A stretch of 33,040 bases of DNA, from contig JAFTXI010000058.1 of assembly GCA_017461665.1 (NCBI GenBank), positions 1 to 33,040 on the forward strand, in the 5' to 3' direction. This document shows, one piece after another, positions 8,701-26,456 of this stretch (positions are counted from its first letter, which is position 1; each line of letters begins with the position of its first letter). The translations under genes and the position numbers were made by a program. The stretch is from Bacteroidales bacterium. Lineage in GTDB: Bacteria; Bacteroidota; Bacteroidia; Bacteroidales; F082. The notes under the pieces are model-generated. The model was not told the DNA's origin, searched no databases, and was given only the letters and a program-made list of their open reading frames with translations.

Positions 8701-11700
8701 TCCGAAGTGTTCTGCTTGATAGTTCATATCTTGAGCACTTGCCCAGAATGTAAACACTGAAGTTGTACCTACTTTAACTCTTGAAGGACTTACAACATAA
8801 TCATCTGGAGAATAAACTCCAACTGCATTACAGAATGACTCTGAGCTGATGTAGCCTACACCTGTGTGTGCATCAACTGCAGATGTTCCGTGGAGAGATG
8901 CCTCTGATGAGTGATACCATGTATGGTCATCACCATTTGCATTGATTGTTGTCCAACCATCCATACCTTCTTCAAAGCCGTATTCAAATTCATCGCCAGT
9001 ACCTATAACTTTGCCTTCCCACATTGCCCAACCTGTTGGTGATACGTAGAGACCTTCAACAGCTAAGATGTCTTCTGTAAGGAATGCGCTAAATTCTGAT
9101 GCTTCCATAATTTCAACGACTTCATTTTCAACGCTTGAAGTGAAACCATTCTTCATGATTGACAACTCGTAAGTACCTTTACGGAAATCATCCCATGTAT
9201 AAGTACCTTCGCTACTCAATGTAATCTGATAATCTTTTCCTTCTTCAATTAAGTTGGTGAATGTAACAACTGTTCCTTTAACAGGGTCACCGCTGTCTGT
9301 TTGAGCGCTGACAGTTACTGAAGTTGTCATGTCTTTATCGATTGGTTTTGACCATAAGATTTCTGATTCTGGAGATTCGGCTGTGATTGTAATATCATCC
9401 AAACCAATACCGAAGCCTGCATAACCATACCATGAGTTAGGGTTAGGTATATGTTCGAATACCAAATAAACTACAGAATTAGCATAGTCTGCCAAGTCAA
9501 CTTGAATTTCATACCAATCATCAATATTTTGTGTTGTTGAAGAACCATCTGTTGACCATACGAGATTTGTCCATGGCCCTTGTGCTGATTCTGCAACATA
9601 AACATTCAAATATGAGAAATCATAACCCCAAATAGGATTGGTGTACATGAAGCTCAACACTGAGTTAGGTTTAACAGAAATTGCAGGTGTTATGAGACAG
9701 CTTTGTGTACCATACAAATAACCATTGGCTAATGGGACAGAGCTACTGAATGCTGAATAAGAGCCAGAGCCTGCAGAATAATCGAAGTCATAACCTGTCT
9801 CTAATAATTGACCAACATACCATTCTGATGGTTTTCCATAATATTGTTGATACCAGTCAGCTGCTGAGAAATATGTTGTCCAGCCTGTTGGCATTACACC
9901 ACCTTCGAAGTTTTCTGAGAAGATAACTTCTGTACCACGGTTGCCTTCATAAATTGCAGAAGCACCCCATTGATATGAACCTGGTTCGTCTGTTGCCCAT
10001 GCGTAGTCAGCGTATGTTGTATCGTTTGTCTTTTCTAAGAGAACTTCTACTTCGCCTGTAAGGATACTCTTCTTATATACGTTGTAAGATGAGAAAGCGC
10101 GAGTAGCCATATTATTCATAGCAGGTGTTTCTTCTGCTGGCATACCAACGTATCTTGGTTCTGCTGATGGGTCAGCTTTTGCAATACCTGTTGAGACACC
10201 ACCTTTGAATTCTTTCTTAGATTTTTCTGTTGTAAATACAACGCTTCTACCCTCAGCATCTTCCAAGTATGCTCTTAACATCCATGAGCAATTCAACTGA
10301 TAGTCGTTTCCGTGAACCCAAGTAGCACCATCAACTGAATAGTAGTCACTATCACTATTACCGTTATAGCTTGAAGCTGCTGCTGGGTATGGTATATCAG
10401 CTGTGTACATTGTCACCCATAATCTATCGACATCACCTAATGACAAAGGACTATCGAGTTCAATTTCCACGAAGTTACCTGTACCTGTCAAGTTAACAGC
10501 TTTACTCTCTATTAAAGTAGCTGGAGCATCTTGACCACCAACATAAACGTTAGCTGTGTAAGTACCTGCATAGTCAACACCTGTGTCATATACTGCAAGT
10601 TTAGTTACTGTATAAGGAGCATATTCTTCTGTTATATTGAATGCAACACCCCAATAGAATGGTGTATAGTCACCCATACCGATTGATGATGCGTAAGCAC
10701 CGTCGTCGTATGTAAGCCAGCCACCTGTGAATGGTTCTTTTTCTTTATAGAAAGAGATATTATCTACATAGTAAGCGTCATCGCCTTCTTGCCACATAAT
10801 ATCTTTTGAATATTCCCAACGATATGTGTGAACACCTTTTGATACTACTAATTCTCTATATGTCCAGTCCATTTCACCTGATACAGATGACATCAAGACA
10901 CCATCGATATAGAAGTAACCATAGTCATAATATAGTTCTGAAGATACTTTATGACAGAAACTTACCAAACCATCGTAAGGTACTTCAACTGTGATTTCTA
11001 TTGCTGACAAACCATAGTCTTGTTCTTCACATGCAGATTTCATTGCATAGTCGCCTTCATATGCGTTTTCTGTGATAACCCATGGATTTGAACCTGTTTC
11101 ATTGTTCCATTCATATAATGAGAAATCGCCTGTTTCGAAGTCTTCTACTTCATTGCCATATCTCTGCATACCCCAAGCAACGCTTACATGTTCTGAAGCT
11201 GGTTCTTCACCATCTCTTGTCTCGACAGCTTCTAATGTCCATGTTTCGATTGTACAATTGCTACCATCGCAATCGCCATAGATGTAATATTCTGTATAAT
11301 ACTCAGGTATTTCAACTTTGAAGTATTTGCTGTTGTCGGTATTCTTGATGTAATAAGTATCATTACCAGCATCTACCATTTCTAAGGCTGTCTTGTCTGA
11401 TGTGCTGTAAGCATCAACATTCCATTCCCAACATTTAACGTAGTTACCATTTGCTGAGAGGAGATATACTTGACTGCCATTTTCTTCCATTGTGAAGAGT
11501 TGAGAGTTATCTTCTGCATAATCAGCTAAACCAACGCCACCGATAGGACCAGTTACGTGTGATTCTGTATCGAATACAGTGATATATTTATTTGTTGAAA
11601 CAGATTTGATACGATATTGTGTAACTTCTGGTTGGTCCGGATCTTCTGGATCGATTGGATCTGTAGGTTCTGAAGAATCGACAACTTTTGCTGTGATATA

Positions 11701-13845
11701 CTTAACAGGATTATATGTTTCAACGATTGAGAAATCAACGACTGAATTCACGTTGTATTCAGCAACAAAATCTGCTTCTGCATTTTGATATTCAGGGACG
11801 ACAGCTGTTGCGATATAGTTACCAGCAAGAATTTCACCTGAGTATGCACCATTTTCGTCAATTTCTAATGAATAATAAGTACCGTTACCGTGTTCGTCGG
11901 TACCTGACAAGTAAACGTAGCCGCCACCTACTGGAGTAACGCCATCTTGTTCATAGATGTTACCAGAAACAGAGCTCATACCTGTAACATAAACTTTCGC
12001 TGGATAGCTATAGTCAGATTCACCTTCATCATATACTGCTGTAACAAAGATATCCCAACCGTAATACATATTGTATGTCAATCCTTCGACAATATATGAG
12101 GTACCTTTAATTACTTCGTCATTTACTTTGTTTGAATTTACATAGACGTTATATCCGATATGTGAGCGTTGTTCAATGCCTTTCCATGTAATCTCTGCTG
12201 TTTCGCCTTCATAAATATCTGATTCAGCAACAGCAACATCTGTTGGTTCTTGGAATGCTGTAGTAAATGCCCATATATCGCCGTATGTCGTACCACTGCT
12301 ATTACGTGTGTTAACTTGCCAGAAATAGTTTTTGTTCATTCCTGTCTCTGCATAATGATTGACTTCAAGATTATCTGTCCAATCAATCAACACATTTTGA
12401 GGAGGATATTGTGTTCCGAAGAGAACTTGATATTCAACTGTATTGTCACCAAATGTCCAATCTAAATAGCAATTAGTTACGCCTTTTTGTGTATGATATG
12501 GAGAAGGATTTGTAGCTTTTCCTGGAGCAGGTGCTGCTACTGCATTAACATTGAGAGTAAACTCTGATGTTGAAGAAGCTGCTAAATAGTATTTACCTGC
12601 TGGAAGTGTCATACTATCGATAGCATTAGATCTTAAAGCTGAACCAACTTGAGGACCTGTGTAGTTATTGTCTGCCATTGGGCCTTCTTTACCTGCGAAG
12701 TCTTCTGTATAAACAGCAACTTTAGCATTATCACCTACAACATCAGCTGTCAAAACAACATCATAGTTGAAATTCAATTCATAAACTACGTCTTTACCGT
12801 TTTCTTCGCTGCCTGGCAATGAGTAGTTGCCATATATTGTTGCCAAGTCAGGTGTTACGCTGAATGGGTATGAAGTAATTGCTTCTGCTGTTTCAAAAAC
12901 ATCGTTAGCGACAGGATTATATGCAAAAGCAGTCATATCGACAAGTTCGATAGATCTTGCATCATTGTAAGAAATCGCGAGTTGACCTGTTACATCACCT
13001 TCTGCGTTAGCATGAACAACATTAACAAACAAAGGCTCTACCATTGAAACTGTAACAGGACATTCAACATCTGACAATTGGAAATATGAATTTGTTGATT
13101 CAATTGCATTAATAACCAAGTCGTTTGATCTTGTAGCAACTTTCACCTCAACAGGAGCCATCCATGCTCCGTTTGGACGTGCGCCCAAATCAATTGGTGA
13201 AGGTTTAATTGTGATAGCTTTGTATTCACCTTGGATTGTCACATTGAACTTTACAACATTTTTACAATATTGTATTGTTCCCTCTCCTGAAAGACTTGCT
13301 ATGTTATATGGGTTACCATCTCTATGCATTTCCAAAGTATGTCTTTGATAATTTTCAAACGAATAAAACTTTGGATAATCACTACTCCAACCACCGGTAT
13401 GGTCATATAAACAGACTAAAAGATTTCCGCCCGCATAGTCAAATGGGGTTTGGAATTCAATAGTCATCCATTCGTCGGAAACTGCAGGTGGAGTTACTTG
13501 TCCGGAGAATACAAGATTGGACTCATCTAAAGAACGCCAATCGTATTCGTTTGTGAATGAGCTATCATCAATGTTTGCCAAATAGACAGAAACTGTACGA
13601 GTTAATCCCGTAGTGTTTGATTGTCTGAAAGCGATTGATGAAATTGTACCAGCTAATTCCTGCATTTCTTCAGCAGTATAGATCTGCTGCGAAACTGAGT
13701 ATTCATAGTAAGGATACGTTGGTAATTGGTTACACACTACAAGTGTCTTATCAGTACCAACATTAACCTCTACATTCGTTTGTGCATAAATTGAGCCAAA
13801 CAGCCCAAACAAGCACATAATCGTAAATAGAAAAGCTTTTTTCAT
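5749..13845 (-). CDS. Giant T9SS-exported cleaved-adhesin (gingipain/HagA-like) multidomain protein
   Basis: A 2698-residue extracellular protein. It has a signal peptide (MKKAFLFTIMCLFGLFGSIYA, cleavage near residue 21). A T9SS type A sorting domain lies at about 2620-2698 (MMVYPNPTQGDLNIS at 2626, then GVYMVRI and VERVTVVK). In between: an N-terminal beta module (25-205), fibronectin-III-like domains (about 437-530 and 534-620), a carboxypeptidase-regulatory-like domain (622-700), a D/P/E-rich linker near 736, a possible trefoil-like segment (740-885), four choice-of-anchor/cleaved-adhesin-like domains (896-1040, 1307-1490, 1617-1805, 1910-2090) and three copies of a module opening W-x-x-YDDG (1041-1194, 2096-2246, 2353-2509). 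The 1617 and 1910 domains strongly resemble Porphyromonas gingivalis gingipain/HagA adhesin domains (SEHFGV-type, DLS-YAGQE, AIRHFN). No protease domain was recognised. A role in adhesion or in binding host or dietary proteins is inference. Boundaries are approximate. Confidence 0.9.
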   Translation of the reverse strand: MKKAFLFTIMCLFGLFGSIYAQTNVEVNVGTDKTLVVCNQLPTYPYYEYSVSQQIYTAEEMQELAGTISSIAFRQSNTTGLTRTVSVYLANIDDSSFTNEYDWRSLDESNLVFSGQVTPPAVSDEWMTIEFQTPFDYAGGNLLVCLYDHTGGWSSDYPKFYSFENYQRHTLEMHRDGNPYNIASLSGEGTIQYCKNVVKFNVTIQGEYKAITIKPSPIDLGARPNGAWMAPVEVKVATRSNDLVINAIESTNSYFQLSDVECPVTVSMVEPLFVNVVHANAEGDVTGQLAISYNDARSIELVDMTAFAYNPVANDVFETAEAITSYPFSVTPDLATIYGNYSLPGSEENGKDVVYELNFNYDVVLTADVVGDNAKVAVYTEDFAGKEGPMADNNYTGPQVGSALRSNAIDSMTLPAGKYYLAASSTSEFTLNVNAVAAPAPGKATNPSPYHTQKGVTNCYLDWTFGDNTVEYQVLFGTQYPPQNVLIDWTDNLEVNHYAETGMNKNYFWQVNTRNSSGTTYGDIWAFTTAFQEPTDVAVAESDIYEGETAEITWKGIEQRSHIGYNVYVNSNKVNDEVIKGTSYIVEGLTYNMYYGWDIFVTAVYDEGESDYSYPAKVYVTGMSSVSGNIYEQDGVTPVGGGYVYLSGTDEHGNGTYYSLEIDENGAYSGEILAGNYIATAVVPEYQNAEADFVAEYNVNSVVDFSIVETYNPVKYITAKVVDSSEPTDPIDPEDPDQPEVTQYRIKSVSTNKYITVFDTESHVTGPIGGVGLADYAEDNSQLFTMEENGSQVYLLSANGNYVKCWEWNVDAYSTSDKTALEMVDAGNDTYYIKNTDNSKYFKVEIPEYYTEYYIYGDCDGSNCTIETWTLEAVETRDGEEPASEHVSVAWGMQRYGNEVEDFETGDFSLYEWNNETGSNPWVITENAYEGDYAMKSACEEQDYGLSAIEITVEVPYDGLVSFCHKVSSELYYDYGYFYIDGVLMSSVSGEMDWTYRELVVSKGVHTYRWEYSKDIMWQEGDDAYYVDNISFYKEKEPFTGGWLTYDDGAYASSIGMGDYTPFYWGVAFNITEEYAPYTVTKLAVYDTGVDYAGTYTANVYVGGQDAPATLIESKAVNLTGTGNFVEIELDSPLSLGDVDRLWVTMYTADIPYPAAASSYNGNSDSDYYSVDGATWVHGNDYQLNCSWMLRAYLEDAEGRSVVFTTEKSKKEFKGGVSTGIAKADPSAEPRYVGMPAEETPAMNNMATRAFSSYNVYKKSILTGEVEVLLEKTNDTTYADYAWATDEPGSYQWGASAIYEGNRGTEVIFSENFEGGVMPTGWTTYFSAADWYQQYYGKPSEWYVGQLLETGYDFDYSAGSGSYSAFSSSVPLANGYLYGTQSCLITPAISVKPNSVLSFMYTNPIWGYDFSYLNVYVAESAQGPWTNLVWSTDGSSTTQNIDDWYEIQVDLADYANSVVYLVFEHIPNPNSWYGYAGFGIGLDDITITAESPESEILWSKPIDKDMTTSVTVSAQTDSGDPVKGTVVTFTNLIEEGKDYQITLSSEGTYTWDDFRKGTYELSIMKNGFTSSVENEVVEIMEASEFSAFLTEDILAVEGLYVSPTGWAMWEGKVIGTGDEFEYGFEEGMDGWTTINANGDDHTWYHSSEASLHGTSAVDAHTGVGYISSESFCNAVGVYSPDDYVVSPSRVKVGTTSVFTFWASAQDMNYQAEHFGVAVSTAGNTSAADFTTIAEWTYGSKGATTEKSAVRGGSKEQAAWVQYSVDLSDYAGQEVYIAIRHFNVSDMFILLVDDVVLTNEGKDNRALEGYTVMLDGVVEVEGLTVPYYQHENLVDGTEYTTTVIASYTLQDSEEMSYTWTKAPQDLFSPVVNLKSEIINDEAVLTWTLPVIYEENDTIIENDTIIEEVELEVVNSFYTDFESGYEGWPMIDADGDGFNWVYSTDYEDVEAYSGTNCMYSESYYNQEGAGALEPDNYLVIPNKIAVTEGSKLYFMARAQDENYPEEHFGVVVSTTNYSVASAYTTIVEWTIEGEKGNVAKRGAKNSRGTAWTEYVVDLSEYAGQEIYVAIRHFNCYDEFRLNIDDVCIFPGSRDSEGTWAYYDDGVMVDGIGGPQTFSWGIKLRAADIEALGSLTKIAAFDRVATSGTFDICLGGDSEPGASVLNQTYTFTGANDFVEIQLSEAIDPEGQNVWIVFNTDDGTNYPAAQCANTGDADGRWIYLASDGWFDVLTGAGLDATWMIRGYFEVQEEVEEPLPAIAEVLGVMIYRNGELITKTPVAGETYTDSKGIRGDEYCVQVVYGGELDSTYYAMSEAKCTETTYNMPCVAPKDLFGQYKYNNDGSFGAELMWPYEDPASWLYYDDGMMVDAIGTGGGSFYWGIMFPAASLTSYEGKSLTKVSVFDCLAHTGQFHIYKGGDSAPGTLVYSQDYVCTAIQDFAKFELDTPVAIDPTQNLWVVFGCNPTTYPASQCNFTGDANGSWCSLDGTTWMDIASPGALGSPVTWMIRAYAGLAKSETVSDEPIEFVNIATGGELVKANMDVKAPAFDHYNIYRGTNDSNYELIGESTTGSYFDEVEAGTYYYQVRAVYVDALNDAECESDPASAYGNSGQDYVIVDVTAIDENGVNGMMVYPNPTQGDLNISAEGITRIVITNALGQVMYDQEVNTDNKIINMSQYEGGVYMVRIVTENGVAVERVTVVK
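8135..8170. repeat. 18-bp tandem duplication inside the giant gene
   Basis: Two adjacent copies of ATGATAGTATCGTTTTCG, the second differing in its last base. In the protein this gives a doubled ENDTII motif in the linker just before the cleaved-adhesin domain at about 1910. It is in frame and looks like recent replication slippage. Confidence 0.85.
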
Positions 13846-13985: not shown

Positions 13986-14885
13986 CTACAAATTGGTTTT
14001 ATTTTTTATCGGTGGTGTTTCTCCCGAAAAGCCCGTTACCACTGCATTTGTGTAAGTTTTTGAAACAGGAATTGGGTCTATTCCCTCAAAATCCAAATCG
14101 ATATAAAAGCCATCGGTTTCGTGTCGTAGTACTTTAATTTTTTTTGAATTGACGATATAAGTTCGATGACAGCGCATCAAAGGAGTGTTCTTAAACGTAT
14201 CTTCTATAGTTTGAATTTTACATCTTATCATATAACGGAACAACATTCCATTGCGTGTATAATAGACTATGGTGTAGTTATCTTCAGCTTTAATGTAATA
14301 AAGGTTATCTAATTTAATGGATAATTTCAGCACTCCCTTGTTGTCGGTTATGTTAATAATGTCTATATTTTGTGCTATAGCTTCTCCGTCGGAGGCTACT
14401 TTGTTCGTATCGGTAACAAGCAAAGTATTACGCATCTCCTTTATTATCGACCACATAGTAGTGATAACGTATGGCACTCCGAGTCCTAATAATGTTATCA
14501 GAATACTTTTGGTTAAAAGATATGATTCGGGATATTCATTCATTTTTACAAATACAATTGAAAGGATTGCATGAAATACACCTATTAATATAATTTCCAA
14601 TAAAAGCCAAATAGAATATTTCAGATAATTTATTTTGATAATTTTTTTTGACAAGAAGAACATGAGAGTCCGACTCAGTATTAGAAAGAGAACGGAAACC
14701 ACTACGAATGTTGTTGTTAGAAGGAAACTTTCTGATTTGGCGACGCCGAACCATGCGGTTTCAGAATATGGAGAATAGATTACGAGGAAGACTAAAGCAT
14801 ACAGAACCGAAAAAGTGAGACTTGAGACTATGTTTCCAGGTTCTATCAGAGTGGCGGTAAAATTATTTTTTTTACGTTTTTTCAT
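13986..14885 (-). CDS. Membrane-anchored LytTR DNA-binding regulator
   Basis: A 299-residue regulator starting MKKRKKNNF. Four hydrophobic helices (about 19-40, 54-78, 91-113, 125-147) anchor it in the inner membrane. A LytTR DNA-binding domain fills about 190-290 (LDNLYYIKAEDNYTIVYY, LMRCHRTYIVNSKKI, DPIPVSKTY). There is no receiver domain, so any signal probably acts through the membrane part or a separate kinase (inference). The frame stays open upstream to 14969, but a perfect -7 box at 14919-14926 lies inside that extension, so the start at 14885 is preferred. It is divergent from the fabH cluster and lies upstream of the giant T9SS gene on the same strand; either could be its target. 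Confidence 0.85.
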   Translation of the reverse strand: MKKRKKNNFTATLIEPGNIVSSLTFSVLYALVFLVIYSPYSETAWFGVAKSESFLLTTTFVVVSVLFLILSRTLMFFLSKKIIKINYLKYSIWLLLEIILIGVFHAILSIVFVKMNEYPESYLLTKSILITLLGLGVPYVITTMWSIIKEMRNTLLVTDTNKVASDGEAIAQNIDIINITDNKGVLKLSIKLDNLYYIKAEDNYTIVYYTRNGMLFRYMIRCKIQTIEDTFKNTPLMRCHRTYIVNSKKIKVLRHETDGFYIDLDFEGIDPIPVSKTYTNAVVTGFSGETPPIKNKTNL

Positions 14886-14918
14886 CAAACAAAATGTTAT
14901 TTCTGAGTTAATCGACTG

Positions 14919-14926
14919 CAAATTTA
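14919..14926 (-). promoter_or_regulatory. Predicted -7 box deciding the LytTR gene start
   Basis: Minus-strand TAAATTTG matches TAnnTTTG and is followed by CA. Transcription would start near 14912, after the upstream ATG at 14969 and about 27 nt before the ATG at 14885. This rules against the longer reading. Confidence 0.6.
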
Positions 14927-15031
14927 CAAAAAATTCACCCCATATTTTGAAATTTTGCCACATTTTCATTTAAAATGCATGGTTTCTCATCTGAAATGCC
15001 ACTTTTTTGATTATGATGTTTTTTTTGATTG

Positions 15032-15039
15032 TATTTTTG
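15032..15039 (+). promoter_or_regulatory. Predicted promoter of the fab-etf cluster
   Basis: TATTTTTG matches TAnnTTTG, with a TTTG at 15006-15009 as a plausible -33 element (22-nt spacer). Transcription would start near 15045, 17 nt before the fabH ATG. It is the only clear promoter seen for the eight-gene cluster and sits back-to-back with the LytTR gene promoter. Confidence 0.55.
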
Positions 15040-15062: not shown

Positions 15063-16010
15063 ATGAAAATTATCGGAACAGGACGTTCTCACCCTTCGTT
15101 AGTTGTGACCAACGATATGCTCTCACAGATTCTTGACACGAGCGACGAATGGATTACCACGAGAACGGGTATTAAAGAAAGACGCGTCATCTCAACAGAG
15201 AACTTAGAAGATTTATCTATTGATGCTGCAAAAAAAGCGTTAGCCGATGCCAACATGGACGCTAAAGATTTGGATTATATTATTTGCGCTAATGTTGTCA
15301 ACGAGTATATTTGTCCTGCTATGAGTTGTATAATACAAGGTGCCATCGGAGCCACCTGCCCATGTTTCGACCTCAACGGTGCATGCGTTGGTTTTATATA
15401 CGCACTCGAAATAGCAGAATCGTTTTATAGAAGCGGCAAATACAAAAACATACTCGTCGTCTGTGCAGAAGAACCTTCACGCATGGTCAATTGGCACGAC
15501 CGCACAGCCAGCGTATTGTTCGGCGACGGTGCAGGCGCAGTAGTGTTGACAGAAGGCGACAACATCAAAGCTACAAAGATGTCGGCTTCATGCAATTGGG
15601 ACAGGCTCTACCAAAAACACGAATTACAATATTCTCCTTTCAACAAGAAACCTAACAGCAACCTTCCTTTGGTAATGCACGGTCAAGATGTCTTCAAGTT
15701 CGCTACACGCGCTGCTATAAAAGACATCAGCCACGTAATGAAAGAAACAGGTTATCAACCTGATGAGATTAAACATTATTTGATACATCAAGCCAATCTC
15801 AGAATCATTAATAATATTAAGGAGTATTTGAATCAACCTGATGAGAAGTTCCCGTTGAATATCCAGAAATACGGCAACACTTCATCGGCAAGTCTTCCCA
15901 TCCTTCTTGACGAAACCAACAAAGAAGGCAGATTACAGAGAGGCGATTTAATAGTAATGAGTGCTTTCGGTTCAGGCTTTGTTTCCGGAGCATGTATTTT
16001 AGAATGGTAA
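15063..16010 (+). CDS. fabH: 3-oxoacyl-ACP synthase III (FabH family)
   Basis: A ketoacyl synthase III that would start chain synthesis by condensing an acyl-CoA primer with malonyl-ACP. At 315 residues it has normal length, and the start MKIIGTGRSHPSLVVTN is canonical. The catalytic triad is intact: C108 in DLNGACVGF, H242 in LIHQAN and N272 in YGNTSSAS. GDGAGAVVL and the C-terminal SAFGSGFVSGA are also typical. First gene of the cluster; fabF begins 4 nt after its stop, which indicates co-transcription. Primer specificity (acetyl, branched or other) cannot be read from the sequence, and it may be a pathway-specific copy rather than the housekeeping FabH. Confidence 0.92.
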   Translation: MKIIGTGRSHPSLVVTNDMLSQILDTSDEWITTRTGIKERRVISTENLEDLSIDAAKKALADANMDAKDLDYIICANVVNEYICPAMSCIIQGAIGATCPCFDLNGACVGFIYALEIAESFYRSGKYKNILVVCAEEPSRMVNWHDRTASVLFGDGAGAVVLTEGDNIKATKMSASCNWDRLYQKHELQYSPFNKKPNSNLPLVMHGQDVFKFATRAAIKDISHVMKETGYQPDEIKHYLIHQANLRIINNIKEYLNQPDEKFPLNIQKYGNTSSASLPILLDETNKEGRLQRGDLIVMSAFGSGFVSGACILEW

Positions 16011-16014
16011 CAAT

Positions 16015-17244
16015 ATGGAAAAAAGAGTAGTTATAACAGGAATGGGTGCTATCACCCCGCTTGGAAATGATGTTGAAACTCTATGGAACAACTTGCTCAA
16101 CGGAGTTTGCGGCATTGATTATATAACAAGAATAGACACATCTGATCTTCCGGTGAAGATCGCTGCAGAAGTAAAAGATTTCGATCCACTACAACACGGT
16201 GTTGACGCTGCTTTTGCAAGACGCAACGACTTATTTGCCATCTACGCTATGGCAGCATCCATCGAGGCGATGAAAGGTAATGAAGGCTGCTTCGACCCTG
16301 AACGTCTCGGTGTTTTTGTTGGTTCTGGTGAAGGTGGTTTTGACACTATCTTAAGAGAGATTGTTAAATGGAAAGAACAAGGTGCAAAGTGGGTCTCCCC
16401 TCTTCTCATCCCTAGCATGATTTCCAATATCGCATCAGGAACTATTGCTATACGTCACAACGCATGCGGTGTCTGCGTACCTATCGTAACAGCTTGTGCA
16501 ACAGGGACACACTCTATCGGTGAAGCTTATCGTGCTATCAAACACGGATATGCAGACGCTATCATCGCCGGCGGGAGTGAGGCTGCTGTTAACCCTATCA
16601 GCATCGCCGGCTTTGCTAACTGCAAGGCTCTCACACGCGCCGAAGATCCAAAATTAGCATCATTGCCTTTCGACAAACGTCGCGCAGGTTTCGTTCTTGG
16701 AGAAGGTGCAGGCATCGTTCTCTTAGAAGAATACGAACACGCCAAAGCTCGCGGCGCCAAGATTTACGCTGAAGTATGCGGCTACGGCAACACCTGCGAC
16801 GCACACCACGTCACAGCACCACATCCAGAAGGAAAACAAGCAGCCCGCGCCATCAAGATGGCTTTGGACGAAGCTGGATATAACGAAAACGACGTACTCC
16901 ACATAAACACACACGGAACAGGAACACCGCTCAACGACAGCTCAGAGACAGCAGCCATCAAGTTGGCTCTCGGTGAAGAAAACGCTCGCAAAGCACATCT
17001 CAACTCCACCAAGTCGATGACAGGTCACCTCCTTGGCGCAGCAGGCGGCGTTGAAGTGATAGCAGCCACACTCGCTCTCTATCACGGAATAGTACCTCCT
17101 ACTATCAATCTCAATGATCCTGATCCTGTATGCGATTTAGACTACACAGCAAATACAGCTAAAAAAGTCGACCTCACAATAGCAATATCAGAATCATTAG
17201 GATTCGGAGGTCATAATTCATGTATAGCATTAAGAAAAATTTAA
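16015..17244 (+). CDS. fabF: 3-oxoacyl-ACP synthase II (FabF family)
   Basis: The elongating ketoacyl synthase, condensing acyl-ACP with malonyl-ACP. The 409 residues match family length. The Cys-His-His site is intact: C161 in VTACATGTHS, H300 in NTHGTGTP and H338 in STKSMTGHLLGAAGG, with the conserved K333. C-terminal LGFGGHNSCIA is typical. There is no chain-length-factor partner as in aryl polyene or type II polyketide clusters, so a simple FabF role is most likely. In many Bacteroidota the housekeeping fabF lies beside acpP and rnc; here it sits with fabH and fabZ, suggesting a dedicated copy. Confidence 0.94.
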   Translation: MEKRVVITGMGAITPLGNDVETLWNNLLNGVCGIDYITRIDTSDLPVKIAAEVKDFDPLQHGVDAAFARRNDLFAIYAMAASIEAMKGNEGCFDPERLGVFVGSGEGGFDTILREIVKWKEQGAKWVSPLLIPSMISNIASGTIAIRHNACGVCVPIVTACATGTHSIGEAYRAIKHGYADAIIAGGSEAAVNPISIAGFANCKALTRAEDPKLASLPFDKRRAGFVLGEGAGIVLLEEYEHAKARGAKIYAEVCGYGNTCDAHHVTAPHPEGKQAARAIKMALDEAGYNENDVLHINTHGTGTPLNDSSETAAIKLALGEENARKAHLNSTKSMTGHLLGAAGGVEVIAATLALYHGIVPPTINLNDPDPVCDLDYTANTAKKVDLTIAISESLGFGGHNSCIALRKI

Positions 17245-17255
17245 TTTTATTGAAG

Positions 17256-17690
17256 ATGACAAAAGAAGAATTAAAACATTATCTGCCTCATCGCGAGCCT
17301 ATGTTGCTTGTAGATGAAATAAACATCGATGAGAATAAGGTAGCTCATTCCAAATATCATGTCACAGGAGAAGAATTTTTCTTGAAAGGACATTTCCCGG
17401 GACAGCCTACAGTACCAGGTGTTATCTTATGCGAAATCATGGCACAGTCATGCGCACTTCTCATGCTCGACGACTTAGTTGGCAAGATAACACTCTACAC
17501 AGGCATCGACAATGTTCGCTTTAAAGCTCAAGTTGTGCCTGGCGACACCATAGAAGTAGAAGCATCATTAACATCAAAAAGAGCAAATATGTATTTCTGC
17601 GAAGCTAAGGCTACCGTCGGCGGTCGTCTCGCAGCTAAAGGAAGTTTATCATTTGCATTAATCGAAGACACAAGAAAGAAAGATGAATAA
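17256..17690 (+). CDS. fabZ: 3-hydroxyacyl-ACP dehydratase (FabZ family)
   Basis: A hot-dog-fold dehydratase that removes water from 3-hydroxyacyl-ACP to give trans-2-enoyl-ACP. Counting from ATG 17256 (144 residues), LPHREPMLLVDEI is followed by the active-site motif HFPGQPTVPG with H46, and by the catalytic glutamate E60 in LCEIMAQ. The frame is open from an ATG at 17220, but that would add twelve residues atypical for FabZ and overlap fabF; the start at 17256 aligns with family N-termini. Its stop overlaps the etfB start (ATGAATAA, 17683-17690), a sign of translational coupling. Confidence 0.93.
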   Translation: MTKEELKHYLPHREPMLLVDEINIDENKVAHSKYHVTGEEFFLKGHFPGQPTVPGVILCEIMAQSCALLMLDDLVGKITLYTGIDNVRFKAQVVPGDTIEVEASLTSKRANMYFCEAKATVGGRLAAKGSLSFALIEDTRKKDE

Positions 17691-18570
17691 TAAAGAATTT
17701 CAAATAGTTGTATTGGCAAAACAAGTGCCTGACACACATAATGTCGGCAAAGACGCCATGAAAGAAGACGGCACCATCAACCGCGCTGCGCTGCCTGCAA
17801 TCTTCAACCCTGACGATTTGAAAGCCTTGGAAATGGCTCTCGCTTGCAAAGACGCACTCAAAGACATCATGCCTGTTAAAGTCACCATCATCACAATGGG
17901 ACCTTCACGCGCAGCAGACATCATCCGCGAATCATTGTTCCGTGGAGCCGACAACGGCTTCGTAGTAAGCGACAGAAGATTCGCAGGTTCTGACACATTG
18001 GCAACCTCTTACGCCTTGTCGGCAGCAGTGAAGAAATTAGGTAAAGTGGATTTAGTATTCTCAGGACGTCAAGCTATCGACGGCGACACCGCTCAAGTCG
18101 GTCCTCAAGTAGCTGAGAAACTTGACATACCTCAAGTGACTTACGCCGAAGAACTCGTCTCTATGACAGAAAAAGAGATAGTGATAAAAAGACGTTTAGA
18201 CAGAGGTGTCGAAACAGTGAAGACATCATTCCCTGCTTTAGTGACAGTTCACGGTAATGCTACAGACTGCCGTCCTCGCCACGCAGAACGCCTCATCTTG
18301 AATAAGAAAGCTTGCTCGGCTTCAGAAGCAAAAGAGAAAAACTTAGATATGGAAGCTCTCTGGGCTAAGAAACCTTTCCTCAAGATAGAAGAATGGAACG
18401 CCGACGACATCAATCCTGACTACGACAGATTAGGTATGACAGGCTCTCCAACAAAAGTGAAATCAATAGAAAATGTTGTTCTTACAAGCAAAGAAAACAA
18501 GAAAATAAATAACAGCGAAAGCGAAATTAACGAACTTATGAAAGAGCTCATCTCAGCTCACATTATTTAA
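17683..18570 (+). CDS. etfB: Electron transfer flavoprotein beta subunit, NADH-type
   Basis: The Etf beta chain, which pairs with EtfA and exchanges electrons with an acyl-CoA dehydrogenase-type flavoprotein. At 295 residues it is longer than many EtfB (about 250-265). The N-terminus has KQVPDT, then [12 protein letters not shown]. Residues 128-141 read [14 protein letters not shown], the form I recall from bifurcating, NADH-binding Etfs (Bcd or caffeyl-CoA reductase type) rather than the D-D-D-x-N-Q-T-G form of beta-oxidation Etfs. Electron flow from NADH toward an enoyl substrate is therefore plausible (inference). It overlaps fabZ by 8 nt, and acpP follows after 19 nt. Confidence 0.92.
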
Positions 18571-18589
18571 TCATTCAAAAAAAATTATT

Positions 18590-18829
18590 ATGGAAACAAG
18601 AGAAAAAGTTATAGACATTATAGTAAATAAATTAGGTGTTGAACGCGAAACTGTCGTCGATAGCGCAAGTTTCACAAACGACCTCGGTGCTGACTCATTA
18701 GATACAGTAGAACTCATCATGGATTTCGAAAGAGAATTTGAAATAAACATCCCTGACACAGAAGCTGAAAAAATCTCTACAGTAGCCGACGCTATTGCAT
18801 TCGTAGAAGAAGCTGTTAACAATAAATAA
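18590..18829 (+). CDS. acpP: Acyl carrier protein
   Basis: A 79-residue acidic acyl carrier protein. The phosphopantetheine attachment site is S36 in [14 protein letters not shown], and the flanking helices ([29 protein letters not shown]) are typical. It would carry the growing chain for the cluster's enzymes. Its position between etfB and etfA is unusual and ties the flavoprotein module to an ACP-bound rather than a CoA-bound substrate (inference). It differs from the common acpP-fabF-rnc arrangement of the housekeeping gene. Confidence 0.96.
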
Positions 18830-18853
18830 TAACATCACCTTAAAATTTGAAGT

Positions 18854-19876
18854 ATGAACAACATATTAGTATTCTGTGAGATAACAGAAGAGCAACAGAT
18901 AGCTGAGGTGAGTTTGGAGCTTTGTTCCAAGGCTCGCAAGCTCGCCGATAAGCTTGGTTCTCGCCTCGATGCTATCGTCATAGGAAACGATTTGAAAAAT
19001 ATAGAAGAACAATTATATCTATACGGTGTCGATTCTATTTTTTATGTAAACGACCCACGTTTATCATTCTATCAAACCCTTCCTTATTTCAGTACTATCA
19101 CAAAATTGATTCAAGAAGAGACACCGGATATTGTTCTTTTCGGAGCAACAGCAGCAGGTCGCGACTTAGGTCCACGCATCGCTTCTTATCTCCGTTGCGG
19201 ACTCACCGCCGACTGCACAAGCTTAGAAATAGGTAACCACACCGACGCTAAATCTGGTAAGGTTTATGAAAATATACTTTATCAAATCCGTCCTGCTTTC
19301 GGTGGCAACATCATCGCTACCATCGTCTCTCCTGAGACAAGACCTCAGATGGCTACAGTACGCGAAGGCGTCATGAAAAAAGAAATTTACAACAACGATC
19401 ATAAAGGCGAATTACGTAACCTCAAAGCTGAAGACTATATCAAAGACAGCGACTTCTGCATAGAGATCTTAAGCCGTCAAATTGAAGCTCAAAAGGTTAA
19501 CATCAAAGGCGCTCCTATCATCGTAGCCGGTGGTTACGGCATGGGCTCCAAGGAAAACTTCGCTCTCCTCCATGAATTAGCCGACGTTATCGGTGGTGAA
19601 GTAGGCGCTACACGTGCCGCTGTCGATGCCGGATTCGCTGAAGGCGAAAGACAAATAGGCCAGACAGGTATCACCGTACGTCCTAAATTATATATCGCTT
19701 GCGGTATCTCAGGTGCTGTTCAACATCGCGCAGGTATGGATCAATCTTCAATGATTATTTCCATCAATACCGATCCTAACGCACCTATCAACAGCATAGC
19801 CGACTACACTATCATCGGCGACGCTATGGATATTTTACCTAAGATGATCAAGAGTTATAAATCTAACATGTTATAA
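18854..19876 (+). CDS. etfA: Electron transfer flavoprotein alpha subunit
   Basis: The FAD-binding alpha chain of Etf, 340 residues. The N-terminal half (about 1-190) is the nucleotide-binding-like domain, with FGATAAGRDLGPRIA near 95-110. The C-terminal FAD domain shows GGYGMGSKENF, VGATRAAVDAG (R254), RQIGQTG, ACGISGAVQHRAGMDQS and INTDPNAPI, all standard FAD contacts. It would form a heterodimer with the EtfB encoded one gene upstream; acpP separates the two. The acyl-CoA dehydrogenase gene starts 11 nt after its stop, so the electron-transfer pair and the dehydrogenase are likely made together. Confidence 0.95.
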   Translation: MNNILVFCEITEEQQIAEVSLELCSKARKLADKLGSRLDAIVIGNDLKNIEEQLYLYGVDSIFYVNDPRLSFYQTLPYFSTITKLIQEETPDIVLFGATAAGRDLGPRIASYLRCGLTADCTSLEIGNHTDAKSGKVYENILYQIRPAFGGNIIATIVSPETRPQMATVREGVMKKEIYNNDHKGELRNLKAEDYIKDSDFCIEILSRQIEAQKVNIKGAPIIVAGGYGMGSKENFALLHELADVIGGEVGATRAAVDAGFAEGERQIGQTGITVRPKLYIACGISGAVQHRAGMDQSSMIISINTDPNAPINSIADYTIIGDAMDILPKMIKSYKSNML

Positions 19877-19887
19877 TCCACACGACT

Positions 19888-21588
19888 ATGAATTTTTACA
19901 GCGATAATAAAAGTCTAAAATTTTATCTCTCACACCCTGTGATGGATAAGATAATCAAGTTGAAAGAACGCGACTTCGTCGATAGCGATAACGACATATT
20001 GGCTCCGGTTGACGTAGAAGATGCCATCGACAACTACGACAAAGTCCTTGAAATAGTAGGTGATTTGGCTGCTAACGTGTTAGAGGCTAACGCTGAAGGC
20101 GTTGATCACGAAGGTCCGCAAGTAGTCAACAACGAGATAGTTTATGCTAAAGGCACACAGAGAAACCACGAAGTATTGCGCGACGCCGGTCTCTATGGAA
20201 TGTCGTTGCCTCGCAAATACAAAGGCTTGAACTTCCCTTACGTTCCTTACGTCATGGCAGCTGAAATAGTTTCACGCGCTGATGCTGGCTTCGCTAACAT
20301 CTGGGGTCTTCAAGACTGTGCAGAGACTATCTACGAATTTGCTTCAGAAGAAATTAAATCAAAATATTTACCTCTCATCAACCAAGGTTTCACCTGCTCT
20401 ATGGCTCTCACCGAACCTGATGCAGGCTCCGACCTTCAATCAGTAAGACTTAAAGCTTCCTTCGATGAGGAAAACAACTGCTGGAGACTCAATGGCGTAA
20501 AACGTTTCATCACCAATGGTGACGCCGACATCCAACTCGTCCTCGCTCGTTCAGAAGAAGGCACAACCGACGGCCGCGGTCTCTCTTACTTCCTCTATGA
20601 CAGAAGAGATAACGCAGTCACAGTGAGACGTATTGAAAACAAACTCGGTATCAAAGGTTCTCCAACAGCAGAATTGGTATTCAACAATGCTCCTGCTCTC
20701 CTCATCGGTGAACGCCGTATGGGTCTTATCAAATACGTGATGTCGTTGATGAACGGCGCTCGTCTCGGCGTTGGTGCTCAGTCTGTTGGTCTCGCCGAAG
20801 CAGCTTATCACGAAGCTTTAGAATATGCTCGTCAACGCGAACAATTCGGAAAAGCTATCATCAACTTCCCACAAGTTTATGAAATGCTCAGCAACATGAG
20901 AGCTAAAATCGATGCAACACGTACTCTCCTCTACGAAACATCTCGCTTCGTCGATTTATACAAAGCCTACGACTCAGTAAGCAAAGAAAGAAGCCTCACA
21001 GCAGAAGAACGTCAAGACATGAAATATGCTCAACGTCATGCCGACATGATGACTCCAATGCTCAAACTCTTCTCAAGTGAATACGCCAACCAGATAGCAT
21101 ACGACTGTATCCAAGTTCACGGCGGTTCTGGCTTCATGAAAGAATATAAATGCGAACGCCTCTACAGAGACGCAAGAATCTTAAGTATCTATGAAGGTAC
21201 ATCACAATTGCAAGTCGTGGCAGCTATCCGTTTCATCGGTAATGGATCATACCTCAAACGCATCGAAGAATACGAAGCAATGCCTATAGCAGACGAATTA
21301 TTGCCTATCCGCGAACGTCTCGCTAAGATGAAAGAAAGCTACATCAGAATAGTCGCTGCTGCCGATAAGTTCGGAACATCGTCAGAAACATACGACTTCT
21401 TAGCTCGCAGAATGGTAGAAGCAATGGGTCACCTCATCATGGGTCACCTCCTTCTTCAAGATACAAACCGCTGCTCCGACTTCAGAAGATCATGTGAATT
21501 GACAGTGGCAACGGGCGAAGCTGAAATAGCTAAAATCCTAACTTACGTAGAAAACTTCAAAGAAGAAGACTTACAATTGTATAAATGA
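19888..21588 (+). CDS. Acyl-CoA dehydrogenase family flavoenzyme (possible enoyl-ACP/CoA reductase)
   Basis: A 566-residue member of the acyl-CoA dehydrogenase family with the usual three-part core (about 30-460) and a C-terminal helical extension (about 460-566) seen in longer members. FAD-site motifs are present (MALTEPDAGSDL at 172-183; QREQFGKAI; QVHGGSGFMKEY), and the catalytic glutamate is E436 in SIYEGTSQLQ. Such enzymes remove hydrogens from acyl-thioesters and pass electrons to Etf. With an NADH-type Etf, as in Bcd-EtfAB, the reaction runs as enoyl reduction. The surrounding fab genes and ACP, and the absence of FabI/FabK, make an enoyl-reductase role attractive, but desaturation of an acyl-ACP is an alternative. 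Confidence 0.9.
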   Translation: MNFYSDNKSLKFYLSHPVMDKIIKLKERDFVDSDNDILAPVDVEDAIDNYDKVLEIVGDLAANVLEANAEGVDHEGPQVVNNEIVYAKGTQRNHEVLRDAGLYGMSLPRKYKGLNFPYVPYVMAAEIVSRADAGFANIWGLQDCAETIYEFASEEIKSKYLPLINQGFTCSMALTEPDAGSDLQSVRLKASFDEENNCWRLNGVKRFITNGDADIQLVLARSEEGTTDGRGLSYFLYDRRDNAVTVRRIENKLGIKGSPTAELVFNNAPALLIGERRMGLIKYVMSLMNGARLGVGAQSVGLAEAAYHEALEYARQREQFGKAIINFPQVYEMLSNMRAKIDATRTLLYETSRFVDLYKAYDSVSKERSLTAEERQDMKYAQRHADMMTPMLKLFSSEYANQIAYDCIQVHGGSGFMKEYKCERLYRDARILSIYEGTSQLQVVAAIRFIGNGSYLKRIEEYEAMPIADELLPIRERLAKMKESYIRIVAAADKFGTSSETYDFLARRMVEAMGHLIMGHLLLQDTNRCSDFRRSCELTVATGEAEIAKILTYVENFKEEDLQLYK

Positions 21589-21595
21589 TAATGTG

Positions 21596-21669
21596 GAATG
21601 AGGAATTAGGAATGAGGAATGAAGAAAACAATTCCTAATTCCTAATTCCTAACTCCTAATTCCTAATTA
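21596..21669. repeat. Inverted heptamer arrays between acyl-CoA dehydrogenase and fabG genes
   Basis: About four AGGAAT(G/T) heptamers (21596-21622) are followed by a short loop and five ATTCCTA-type heptamers (21631-21665). The two arrays are inverted relative to each other and could pair into a long hairpin in the cluster mRNA, just before the fabG start at 21681. It is the only large gap inside the cluster (92 bp). Confidence 0.75.
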
Positions 21670-21680
21670 AATTAAATGTT

Positions 21681-22427
21681 ATGAAATTATTATTGGAAAA
21701 TAAAACCGCTGTCATCACAGGTGCAGCAAGAGGAATAGGCAAAGCCATCGCAAAACGTTTTGCAGAAGAAGGTTGTAACATCGCTTTCACCGACTTAAAC
21801 GAAGAAAGTATAAAAGCTACTGAAGCTGAATTACAAGCTCTTGGCGTACAAGCTAAAGGTTATTTGTCGAACGCTGCTGACTTCAACGACGTTGAAAATA
21901 CAGTGAAACAAATACATCAAGACTTCGGTCGCATCGACGTTTTAGTTAATAACGCAGGCATCACAAGAGACAACCTCATGATGAGAATGACAGAGAAAAA
22001 CTGGGACGACGTTATCACCGTCAACTTGAAATCAGCATTCAACTTCATCCATGCCATCGTTCCTATCATGGCACGTCAACGCTCAGGTAGCATCATCAAT
22101 ATGGCTTCTGTAGTAGGCGTCTCTGGTAACGCAGGTCAATCCAACTACTCAGCTTCAAAGGCAGGTTTAATAGGTTTGGCAAAATCTATTGCTAAAGAAA
22201 TGGGGTCACGTAACATCAGAGCCAACAGTATCGCTCCTGGTTTCATCATCACAGAGATGACAAATCAAATCCCAGAGCAAGCTAAGGAAGAATGGATGAA
22301 ACAAATTCCTTTAAGAAGAGGTGGAACTCCTGAAGATGTAGCCGACACAGCTTTGTTCCTCGCAAGCGATTTGTCAAGATATGTCACTGGACAAACCATT
22401 CACTGCTGCGGCGGTATGAATTGCTAA
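21681..22427 (+). CDS. fabG: 3-oxoacyl-ACP reductase (FabG)
   Basis: A short-chain dehydrogenase reducing 3-oxoacyl-ACP to 3-hydroxyacyl-ACP with NAD(P)H. At 248 residues it has the normal FabG length. The cofactor motif TGAARGIG is at 14-20, NNAGI at 90-94, and the catalytic residues N115, S143 (MASVVG), Y156 and K160 (YSASK) are all present. The C-terminal VTGQTIHCCGGMNC fits FabG. It completes the ketoacyl synthase, reductase and dehydratase set of the cluster and is its last gene, followed by a strong terminator. Confidence 0.95.
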   Translation: MKLLLENKTAVITGAARGIGKAIAKRFAEEGCNIAFTDLNEESIKATEAELQALGVQAKGYLSNAADFNDVENTVKQIHQDFGRIDVLVNNAGITRDNLMMRMTEKNWDDVITVNLKSAFNFIHAIVPIMARQRSGSIINMASVVGVSGNAGQSNYSASKAGLIGLAKSIAKEMGSRNIRANSIAPGFIITEMTNQIPEQAKEEWMKQIPLRRGGTPEDVADTALFLASDLSRYVTGQTIHCCGGMNC

Positions 22428-22463: not shown

Positions 22464-22495
22464 AGAGACTGTCGATAATCGACAGTCTCTTTTTT
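22464..22495 (+). terminator. Rho-independent terminator of the fab-etf cluster
   Basis: A perfect twelve-base stem (AGAGACTGTCGA / TCGACAGTCTCT) with loop TAA is followed by a run of T, starting 37 nt after the fabG stop. It closes the plus-strand cluster against the convergent lipoprotein gene. Confidence 0.93.
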
Positions 22496-25385: not shown

Positions 25386-26456
25386 ATGGAAAATAAAAAG
25401 CTACAATCAGTATTAGAGAATTGGCAGAAAATGCAGCCATTGTCAGAACAAGACCGTAAGAAATTAAGCAAGAGGTTTACTATAGATTTTAACTATAATA
25501 GTAACCATATTGAAGGAAATACGCTGACATACGGTCAGACCGAATTATTGTTATTGTTTGGCAAAGTGATAGGAGAGGCTGATTTCCGCGACTGTGAAGA
25601 GATGAAAGCCAGCAATGTTGGTTTACAAATGATGATATTAGAATCGAGTGAAAAGCAGGTTCTTACTCAGAATTTCATTCGTACGTTACATCGTACACTA
25701 TTACGCGAAGATTATACAGTATATCGTAATTTACCTGGAGGCATTCAAACAAGTTACATAATTCATGCTGGGCAATATAAGACACGTCCTAACAGCGTCA
25801 TCACTCGTTATGGCGACCGTTTTGATTATGCTTCTCCAGAAGAAACACCAGCATTGATGACAGACCTCATCGATTGGTATAATAAGGAGGAGCAAGAAGG
25901 TAATCTTTCTCCTATTGATTTGGCGATACTATTCCACTACCGTTATATTAGAATTCATCCTTTTGAAGACGGAAATGGACGTATCGCTCGTTTATTGATG
26001 AATTACATCCTATCGAGACATGGTTATCCGATGATAGTTGTACGTAGTAGATTAAAGTACGACTATTTAGAAGCGTTACACCGTGCTGATTTGAATGTTG
26101 GGTCCGCTCCTATAGATGGAGCAAATGCATCACTAAAAAGCATTCGACCTTTTCATAAATACATGCTTGATATAATCACTAAAGAAATCGGCAACGATAT
26201 ATTGTTTTTAACAGAACACGATGAAAATATTTGGTGGTATGATGGAGAGAGAGTAGTTTTCAGAACATCAACTTACAATAAGATATTACGTACTATGCAA
26301 ATAGAACCAAAAGCCACATTATCTTATTTACAGGGTGAGGTTGGTATTAATCGCTCGGCATTACAAAAGATGTTATCTTCATTGCAAGACAAAGGTTACA
26401 TTTCAAGGGATGATAACGTCTCTTGGCGTGTGTTTATTACTCCTTCTATTTACTAA
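25386..26456 (+). CDS. Fic family protein with N-terminal inhibitory motif and C-terminal winged helix
   Basis: A 356-residue Fic protein. The Fic core motif HPFEDGNGRIAR (H191-R202) is complete, so transfer of AMP (or another nucleotide-derived group) to a target protein is expected. Near the N-terminus SNHIEGNT (S39, E43, G44) matches the S/T-x-x-x-E-G/N inhibitory helix of self-restrained class II Fic proteins, which explains the lack of a separate antitoxin gene. The last 80 or so residues (about 275-356, YNKILRTMQIEPKATLSYL, INRSALQKMLSSLQDKGYI) look like a winged helix-turn-helix, common in this group and possibly autoregulatory. Targets are unknown. It is a single-gene unit between the S46 peptidase (divergent) and metG. 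Confidence 0.93.
   Translation: MENKKLQSVLENWQKMQPLSEQDRKKLSKRFTIDFNYNSNHIEGNTLTYGQTELLLLFGKVIGEADFRDCEEMKASNVGLQMMILESSEKQVLTQNFIRTLHRTLLREDYTVYRNLPGGIQTSYIIHAGQYKTRPNSVITRYGDRFDYASPEETPALMTDLIDWYNKEEQEGNLSPIDLAILFHYRYIRIHPFEDGNGRIARLLMNYILSRHGYPMIVVRSRLKYDYLEALHRADLNVGSAPIDGANASLKSIRPFHKYMLDIITKEIGNDILFLTEHDENIWWYDGERVVFRTSTYNKILRTMQIEPKATLSYLQGEVGINRSALQKMLSSLQDKGYISRDDNVSWRVFITPSIY

Follow-up and report, generated by a model that had tools for sequence, protein, structure and literature searches.

Gene content of the locus

The window (the whole stretch analysed, 33,040 nucleotides) is the entire contig C52 of a 2.49-Mb Bacteroidales assembly (genome G000), which is 94% complete. It contains an operon of eight genes on the + strand, in which a set for type II fatty acid synthesis (FAS) is combined with both subunits of an electron transfer flavoprotein (Etf) and a protein of the acyl-CoA-dehydrogenase family (ACAD; CoA, coenzyme A). 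The two etf genes and acad are referred to as the module; the function considered here is the reduction of enoyl groups bound to acyl carrier protein (ACP). The open reading frames (ORFs) are exactly those of the first-pass annotation, a reading of this DNA made from its letters alone, and the eight names given there agree with the Pfam and NCBIfam profile scans, which are concordant on all eight genes (Table 1). G, C and L precede the numbers of genomes, contigs and loci. Papers are cited by PMC identifier.

Table 1. Genes and other features of the cluster and its borders. Bits are profile scores, followed by the cut-off of the model.
Feature	Position	Strand	Evidence
FabH, beta-ketoacyl-ACP synthase III (initiation)	15063..16010	+	NF006829 347 bits, cut-off 249
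FabF, Clostridia-like beta-ketoacyl-ACP synthase II	16015..17244	+	TIGR03150 550 bits, cut-off 493.75
FabZ, 3-hydroxyacyl-ACP dehydratase	17220..17690	+	NF000582 125 bits, cut-off 113
EtfB, bifurcating-type sequence	17683..18570	+	PF01012
ACP, DSL phosphopantetheine site	18590..18829	+	NF002151 111.5 bits, cut-off 92
EtfA, FAD-binding shuttle subunit, TVREGVM	18854..19876	+	PF01012 and PF00766
ACAD, 566 aa, proposed enoyl-ACP reductase	19888..21588	+	PF02771, PF02770, PF00441 and C-terminal PF12186; YEGTSQ with E436
FabG, 3-oxoacyl-ACP reductase	21681..22427	+	TIGR01830 335 bits, cut-off 297.75
Intrinsic-terminator-like hairpin	22464..22490	+	12 pairs, then T run
LytTR-domain protein, divergent to fabH, candidate regulator	13986..14969	-	PF04397

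The curated NCBIfam cut-offs are exceeded by FabH, FabF, FabZ, ACP and FabG, i.e. by the component set of type II FAS. The two Etf proteins and the ACAD score above the Pfam cut-offs and above none of the NCBIfam cut-offs shown. No enoyl-ACP reductase of a known class was found in the cluster by the profile scans. FabH residues C108, H242 and N272, which we take to be the catalytic triad, are invariant in 10/10 aligned sequences. For fabZ, a start at the second in-frame ATG (17256) is a likely alternative.

The successive intergenic distances from fabH to fabG are 4, -25, -8, 19, 24, 11 and 92 nt. The spacing first described (mostly 4-24 nt or overlapping) holds for six of the gaps; fabG, 92 nt away from acad, is more distant than had been implied. 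This sole long gap of the operon (21589-21680) contains repeats of the type AATTCCTAATTCC. A single promoter and a single strong terminator had also been proposed. The terminator is upheld, its hairpin having the longest stem of the terminator scan. A promoter is not clearly supported: the 17 sigma-70-like matches do not exceed the number in shuffled sequences (15.2, standard deviation 4.1), and a pair resembling the Bacteroidota consensus TTTG / TAnnTTTG (15006-15009 / 15032-15039) is a candidate reading. An Rfam scan gave no match.

Conservation of the cluster

At least 185 of the 198 genomes of the order have an ACAD match at E<=0.001, short ACADs included. Among 60 neighbourhoods inspected, 26 contain FAS genes (linked sets) and 34 are etf/ACAD sets without FabH, FabF or FabZ (unlinked sets). 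All 34 unlinked loci show ACAD and EtfA, and 32 of them show EtfB. In one of them, L059 (G164), a FabG-like gene (66%) lies directly upstream of etfB.

The module-type loci number 30 (the 26, three further ones and the window), all from one genus by computed kinship. Among the matches listed, 32 genomes of the genus have a module-type FabF score (>=790 bits), and the neighbourhood was inspected in 30 (all but G310 and G350). The order fabH-fabF-fabZ-etfB-acpP-etfA-acad-fabG is kept in 30/30 loci, window included, which rules out a chance adjacency of the eight genes and bears out the conservation that had been put forward as a check. Median gaps range from -14 to 48 nt; even the largest gap between fabH and fabG (454 nt) could not accommodate another long gene. 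All 29 other loci likewise have a LytTR gene divergent to fabH.

Motifs that we take to be catalytic are retained: the three of FabH in 30/30 loci each, those of FabF in 30/30, 29/30 and 30/30, those of FabZ in 27/30 and 28/30, and both of FabG in 30/30. The DSL site of ACP is found in 29/29 sequences and YEGTSQ of the ACAD in 30/30. The earlier statement that the catalytic residues are intact thus extends to nearly all of the 30 loci.

Co-occurrence was scored in 75 of the 99 genomes of the genus, ACAD matches that are split or at a contig end being counted as present. Among the matches listed, 63 genomes have cluster-type FabF together with long ACAD and 9 have neither (Fisher p 4e-9, uncorrected for relatedness). 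The discordant genomes are G286 and G322 (ACAD alone) and G287 (FabF alone), whose cluster has fabK.

The enoyl-reductase position in related clusters

Reductases were sought within 7 kb of fabF in the loci of the 80 best FabF relatives of the genome_contigs scan, split according to record titles into 35 Bacteroidota loci and 45 loci of other groups. The FabF of the window shares 54-60% identity with those of the non-Bacteroidota loci (63% for L235) and 45% with the other FabF of its own genome. The Bacteroidota loci comprise 9 with FabK, 1 with FabI (L249, after fabG), 4 with Etf and ACAD and 21 with none; the other loci comprise 31 with FabK and 14 with none. Two kinds of reductase are found together in 0/80 loci. 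At least five Bacteroidota loci (L212, L213, L214, L216, L255) repeat contigs counted elsewhere; the ACADs of L212 and L213 are identical to those of L107 and L122. Once these five are removed, the Bacteroidota counts are FabK 9, FabI 1, Etf and ACAD 2 (L262, L265) and none 18. Some loci of the last class end at a contig edge; flanks of 3 kb in both directions are available for 19 of the 35 loci without reductase, 14 of which are Bacteroidota.

L262 (Bacteroidales, yak rumen) and L265 (Bacteroidetes, a RUG-named metagenome-assembled genome, presumably from the rumen too) belong to a distant lineage. Their gene order is fabH-fabF-fabZ-fabG-etfB-etfA-acad, with no ACP match within the cluster. 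The position of acpP between etfB and etfA, first taken as a sign that the dehydrogenase acts on ACP-bound chains, is kept in 29/30 module-type loci; it is not essential, as acpP is absent there in G256 (L108) and unmatched in L262 and L265. In these two loci, too, a LytTR gene is oriented divergently to fabH; the same holds for 18/35 Bacteroidota loci overall.

Within the genus itself, 19 sister-type loci (18 genomes) have the order fabH-fabF-fabZ-acpP-fabG, without module. In a twentieth (L146, G287) the order is fabH-fabF-fabZ-acpP-fabK-fabG, i.e. FabK is in the slot of the module. A FabK or FabI match of 40 bits was found in 0/30 module-type loci. The Etf/ACAD module therefore occupies the place held by FabK or FabI in related clusters. 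G307 has two fabH-fabF-fabZ-acpP-fabG clusters (L156, L157). In 15/20 sister-type loci a LytTR gene is convergent and downstream of fabG instead.

EtfA, EtfB and the dedicated ACAD probably form an Etf-dependent enoyl-ACP reductase of a type II FAS operon, replacing FabK or FabI. We infer the ACP substrate, the direction and the electron donor of the module as follows. NADH and a second flavin, the beta-FAD, would be bound by EtfB; electrons would reach the FAD cofactor of the ACAD through the alpha-FAD of EtfA, and the ACAD would work in reverse, converting trans-2-enoyl-ACP into acyl-ACP and closing the FabF-FabG-FabZ cycle. The observation made in the first-pass annotation is confirmed and its interpretation partly supported.

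Phylogeny of FabF and ACAD

The FabF tree includes 42 chosen loci, with FabK-type loci of Clostridia and of one Spirochaete as outgroup. Module-type loci are found in two places; the module label requires two changes, and 0% of bootstraps give one. The ACAD tree (midpoint root) includes 44 of 68 extracted proteins. A branch with 99/100 support separates all 15 linked ACADs from 29 unlinked ones, among which are the unlinked ACADs of this genus. These trees suggest either that a specialised ACAD lineage entered FAS clusters more than once or that an old association was lost repeatedly.

Enoyl reductases elsewhere in the genomes

The proposed census of FabI and FabK gave FabI in 0/99 genomes of the genus (E. 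coli query; no FabI-level match, best 69 bits) and FabK in 5/99. In 12 loci fetched from the best FabI matches, FabG scores higher than FabI (closest L167, 93 versus 83 bits) and there is no real match to a Bacteroidales FabI. At E<=1e-20, FabI is found in 0/29 genus versus 9/14 outgroup genomes (80-94 bits in the latter); five of the outgroup FabI loci fetched are 71-74% identical to a sixth. FabK, sought with TIGR03151, is found in 4/29 genus versus 10/14 outgroup genomes, one match being weak (G060, 127 bits). Both are lacking in 25/29 genus genomes and in 1/14 outgroup genomes (G018). The latter, an outgroup genome of the order, has a long ACAD. Neither FabI nor FabK was detected in 11/14 of the module-bearing genomes tested.

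The nine genomes with sister-type FabF have neither reductase; seven of them were seen as loci, and G288 and G308 were assigned from the FabF score alone. Among the matches listed, several genomes have an unlinked etfBA-ACAD set on the contig of the cluster-type FabF; in the five where the two seem nearest (G247:C31, G224:C5, G309:C27, G288:C14, G296:C4), the distance is about 36-43 kb. Sister-type FAS loci may rely on such unlinked sets.

Six short-chain dehydrogenases/reductases (SDRs; PF13561) are encoded in the assembly of the window, of which FabG of the cluster alone passes a FabG cut-off. The five others match no FabI model among the families shown; they have YxxxK instead of Y-x6-K, which we take to be the FabI/FabL motif.

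Other FAS and Etf genes in the genome of the window

The second FabF gene is on C9, after an ACP gene and before a ribonuclease-III-like ORF (named by eye). Only one ACAD with PF12186 was found in the assembly. A separate, shorter Bcd-EtfB-EtfA set is on C14, beside 3-hydroxybutyryl-CoA-dehydrogenase-like and crotonase-like ORFs (both named by eye), so that the CoA-level job seems taken.

The separate acpP-fabF locus agrees with a reading of the cluster as a second FAS whose product is a special acyl chain, destined for a lipid or metabolite instead of the bulk fatty acids of the membrane, as do the LytTR neighbour of the cluster and the lack of the cluster in some congeners among the matches listed. 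The module would still reduce enoyl-ACP, and this reading is compatible with the proposed reductase. It is a possibility of some weight, although short of even: among the SDRs found in the assembly, none but the product of the cluster's fabG passes a FabG cut-off, and there is no space for long tailoring genes from fabH to fabG. In the same genome, two SDRs of L013 (C32) flank an ORF that resembles aminotransferases of the AONS/serine palmitoyltransferase type (named by eye); this group is possibly involved in sphingolipid synthesis.

Sequence features of the Etf proteins and the ACAD

The PDB sequences matched by EtfB at E<=1e-20 (n=5: 6fah, 5ol2, 7koe, 7qh2, 4kpu) are presumably all from bifurcating Etf. 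EtfA matches C. difficile EtfA (5ol2) with 281 bits. Motifs were counted in 34 linked rows, two of which are repeats, and in 32 EtfB and 34 EtfA from unlinked sets. The ACAD has the N-terminal, middle and C-terminal domains of its family and YEGT (34/34 linked), the Glu of which we take to be the catalytic residue. The beta-FAD motif of EtfB (DGDTAQVGP, Gly included) and its SPT are found in 34/34 linked and 32/32 unlinked sequences, TVRxGVM of EtfA in 34/34 linked and 33/34 unlinked ones. The beta-FAD recognition motif is described as typical of bifurcating complexes and absent from non-bifurcating Etf (PMC9232219), and an invariant Gly of bifurcating EtfB has been reported (PMC12630350). Mutants in RxFxG and SPT were used to study NAD binding and the anchor, and in our reading the Arg of EtfA TVRxGVM corresponds to an Arg treated in the same paper (PMC9232219).

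The SPT anchor in EtfB of the window is preceded by an insertion. For the Etf of C. propionicum, whose acrylyl-CoA reductase is apparently non-bifurcating (PMC5861303), an insertion has been proposed to block ferredoxin (PMC9232219). By analogy, the insertion in EtfB of the window would weigh against ready bifurcation. It is absent from three printed rows of a clade with 528-aa ACADs and from L262 and L265, so that Etf forms may differ. The ACADs of this clade (L048 and others) lack about 23 residues after position 359; in L048, the matched acad and fabG sequences overlap by 8 nt.

The module is predicted to be NADH-driven, with electrons passed on to the flavin of the ACAD, and perhaps bifurcating. 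An energy-conserving FAS, in which every round of elongation uses NADH and a bifurcating Etf to reduce enoyl-ACP and stores part of the energy in reduced ferredoxin, is rather unlikely on present evidence. If true, lipid synthesis in these gut bacteria would also contribute to their anaerobic energy metabolism.

Evidence against the proposed function and alternatives

The following results weigh against an Etf-dependent enoyl-ACP reductase. The genome of the window has an intact FabK homologue (320 aa) on C17/C27, outside the cluster; it scores 312 bits (cut-off 453) with the FabK model and 392 bits against P. gingivalis FabK (4iql). The FabK region and about 10 kb of flanking ORFs are the same on C17 and C27 (L068, L069) and are probably one region assembled twice. 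The absence of any other enoyl reductase from this genome is refuted by this gene: the three flavoproteins, first presented as the only candidates for enoyl reduction, are so inside the cluster and not in the genome. FabK is found in 3/14 module-bearing genomes (G000, i.e. that of the window, G298 and G290). In the scan of FabF relatives, no reductase accompanies fabF in 21/35 Bacteroidota loci. FabV (PF12241) was found in 0/99 genomes of the genus with a model that matched none of 14 control genomes, and FabL was sought through its similarity to FabI, with no query of its own.

Five congeners that are 96-100% complete (G272, G284, G289, G316, G286) have no cluster-type FabF, FabI or FabK among the matches listed; within the same scope a long ACAD is present in G286 (52% identity) and in none of the other four. 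These genomes need a reductase that escaped detection or fatty acids from outside, and the same could hold in module-bearing genomes. Absence of FabI and FabK across the genus was rejected as proof, since these clusterless congeners lack both too. They are the main unexplained result and limit the argument from absence.

The beta-FAD motifs are common to unlinked EtfB (32/32) and EtfA (33/34), and the exact RxFxG of EtfB is found in 4/34 linked versus 30/32 unlinked sequences. The forms in linked EtfB are KRFAG (21), KRFAA (7), RRFAG (3), RKFAG (1), MRFAG (1) and ARFAG (1): R is replaced by K in 28/34, 7 of which also have A instead of G. EtfB of the window has an intact RxFxG (RRFAG). The change is mostly conservative as judged from the residues, and may touch NAD binding.

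The alteration of RxFxG in most linked EtfB and the FabK gene in the genome of the window would both suit a forward reaction, in which an acyl-ACP dehydrogenase makes 2-enoyl-ACP (for anaerobic desaturation or a special acyl group), electrons leave via Etf, and FabK or another enzyme performs the reduction. ACADs are reversible and carrier-bound dehydrogenases exist; the MbtN and RedW models are matched, although far below cut-off. Yet the gaps from fabH to fabG (at most 454 nt) leave no space for a long extra gene, the same slot is filled by FabK or FabI in related loci, 11/14 module-bearing genomes have neither of these, and EtfB retains the beta-FAD motif of NADH-using Etf. The forward reaction is accordingly considered improbable.

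The branch of the ACAD tree leading to L262 and L265 is long (1.04), which makes their placement less sure. Outside the genus, FabI or FabK accompanies the long ACAD in 9/10 tested genomes among the matches listed, so that membership of the long ACAD family does not by itself make a protein an enoyl reductase. This result, with the 34 unlinked etf/ACAD sets of the order, would agree with a CoA-level enzyme of fatty-acid or amino-acid fermentation that shares the operon merely for co-regulation. Such an enzyme is very improbable here: linked ACADs form a separate clade, the association persists despite the different gene order of L262 and L265, and the genome has a separate Bcd-EtfBA set.

Other genes of the window

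The gene at 5749-13845 (-) encodes a protein of 2698 aa that combines Cleaved_Adhesin domains with a Por secretion tail. A gene at 25386-26456 (+) encodes a Fic-domain protein and adjoins a methionyl-tRNA-synthetase-like gene.

Comparison with known systems

Enoyl reduction is a drug-targeted step of FAS; its bacterial enzymes are classed as FabI, FabL, FabK, FabV and variants (PMC9260719). In agreement with the first-pass annotation, which knew of no such described system, no description of an Etf/ACAD enoyl-ACP reductase was found in open-licence PMC papers. A 2022 review of these enzymes deals with FabI, FabK, FabV, FabL and variants from metagenomes; "electron transfer flavoprotein" and "acyl-CoA dehydrogenase" are absent from its main text (PMC9260719).

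Bcd-EtfAB (C. difficile 5ol2; M. elsdenii) belongs to the same three families and shares the EtfB beta-FAD motif, SPT and EtfA TVRxGVM with the module. NADH-driven reduction of 2-enoyl thioesters is its known chemistry (PMC9232219, PMC12630350, PMC5691135). Its substrate is CoA-bound, whereas the dehydrogenase of the window (566 aa, with PF12186) is encoded among ACP and fab genes.

The acryloyl-CoA reductase AcrABC of C. propionicum/Anaerotignum is the best NCBIfam match for EtfA and ACAD and the second best for EtfB, all far below the equivalog cut-offs (316/600, 207/475 and 235/640), i.e. outside the families. We know of no ACP or fab genes in the AcrABC system. AcrABC is a reductase-Etf complex that is apparently non-bifurcating (PMC5861303).

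The RedW, MbtN and PigA models describe members of the ACAD family acting on carrier-protein thioesters; the scores (129/650, 26.9/700 and 124/500) are far below the cut-offs. Dehydrogenases of this type work in the oxidative direction.

FabK, the FMN enoyl-ACP reductase II, holds the same slot (L146; 9/35 Bacteroidota and 31/45 other loci among the 80 best FabF relatives) but is a single protein of an unrelated family without Etf, unlike the module. FabI, FabL and FabV catalyse the reaction proposed here but are SDR-type proteins. By the tests made, the module falls outside FabI, FabK and AcrABC. A multi-subunit flavoprotein reductase derived from fermentation enzymes would be mechanistically unlike the known classes, would explain genomes that seem to have no enoyl reductase, and would tie lipid synthesis to the NADH/ferredoxin balance in anaerobes.

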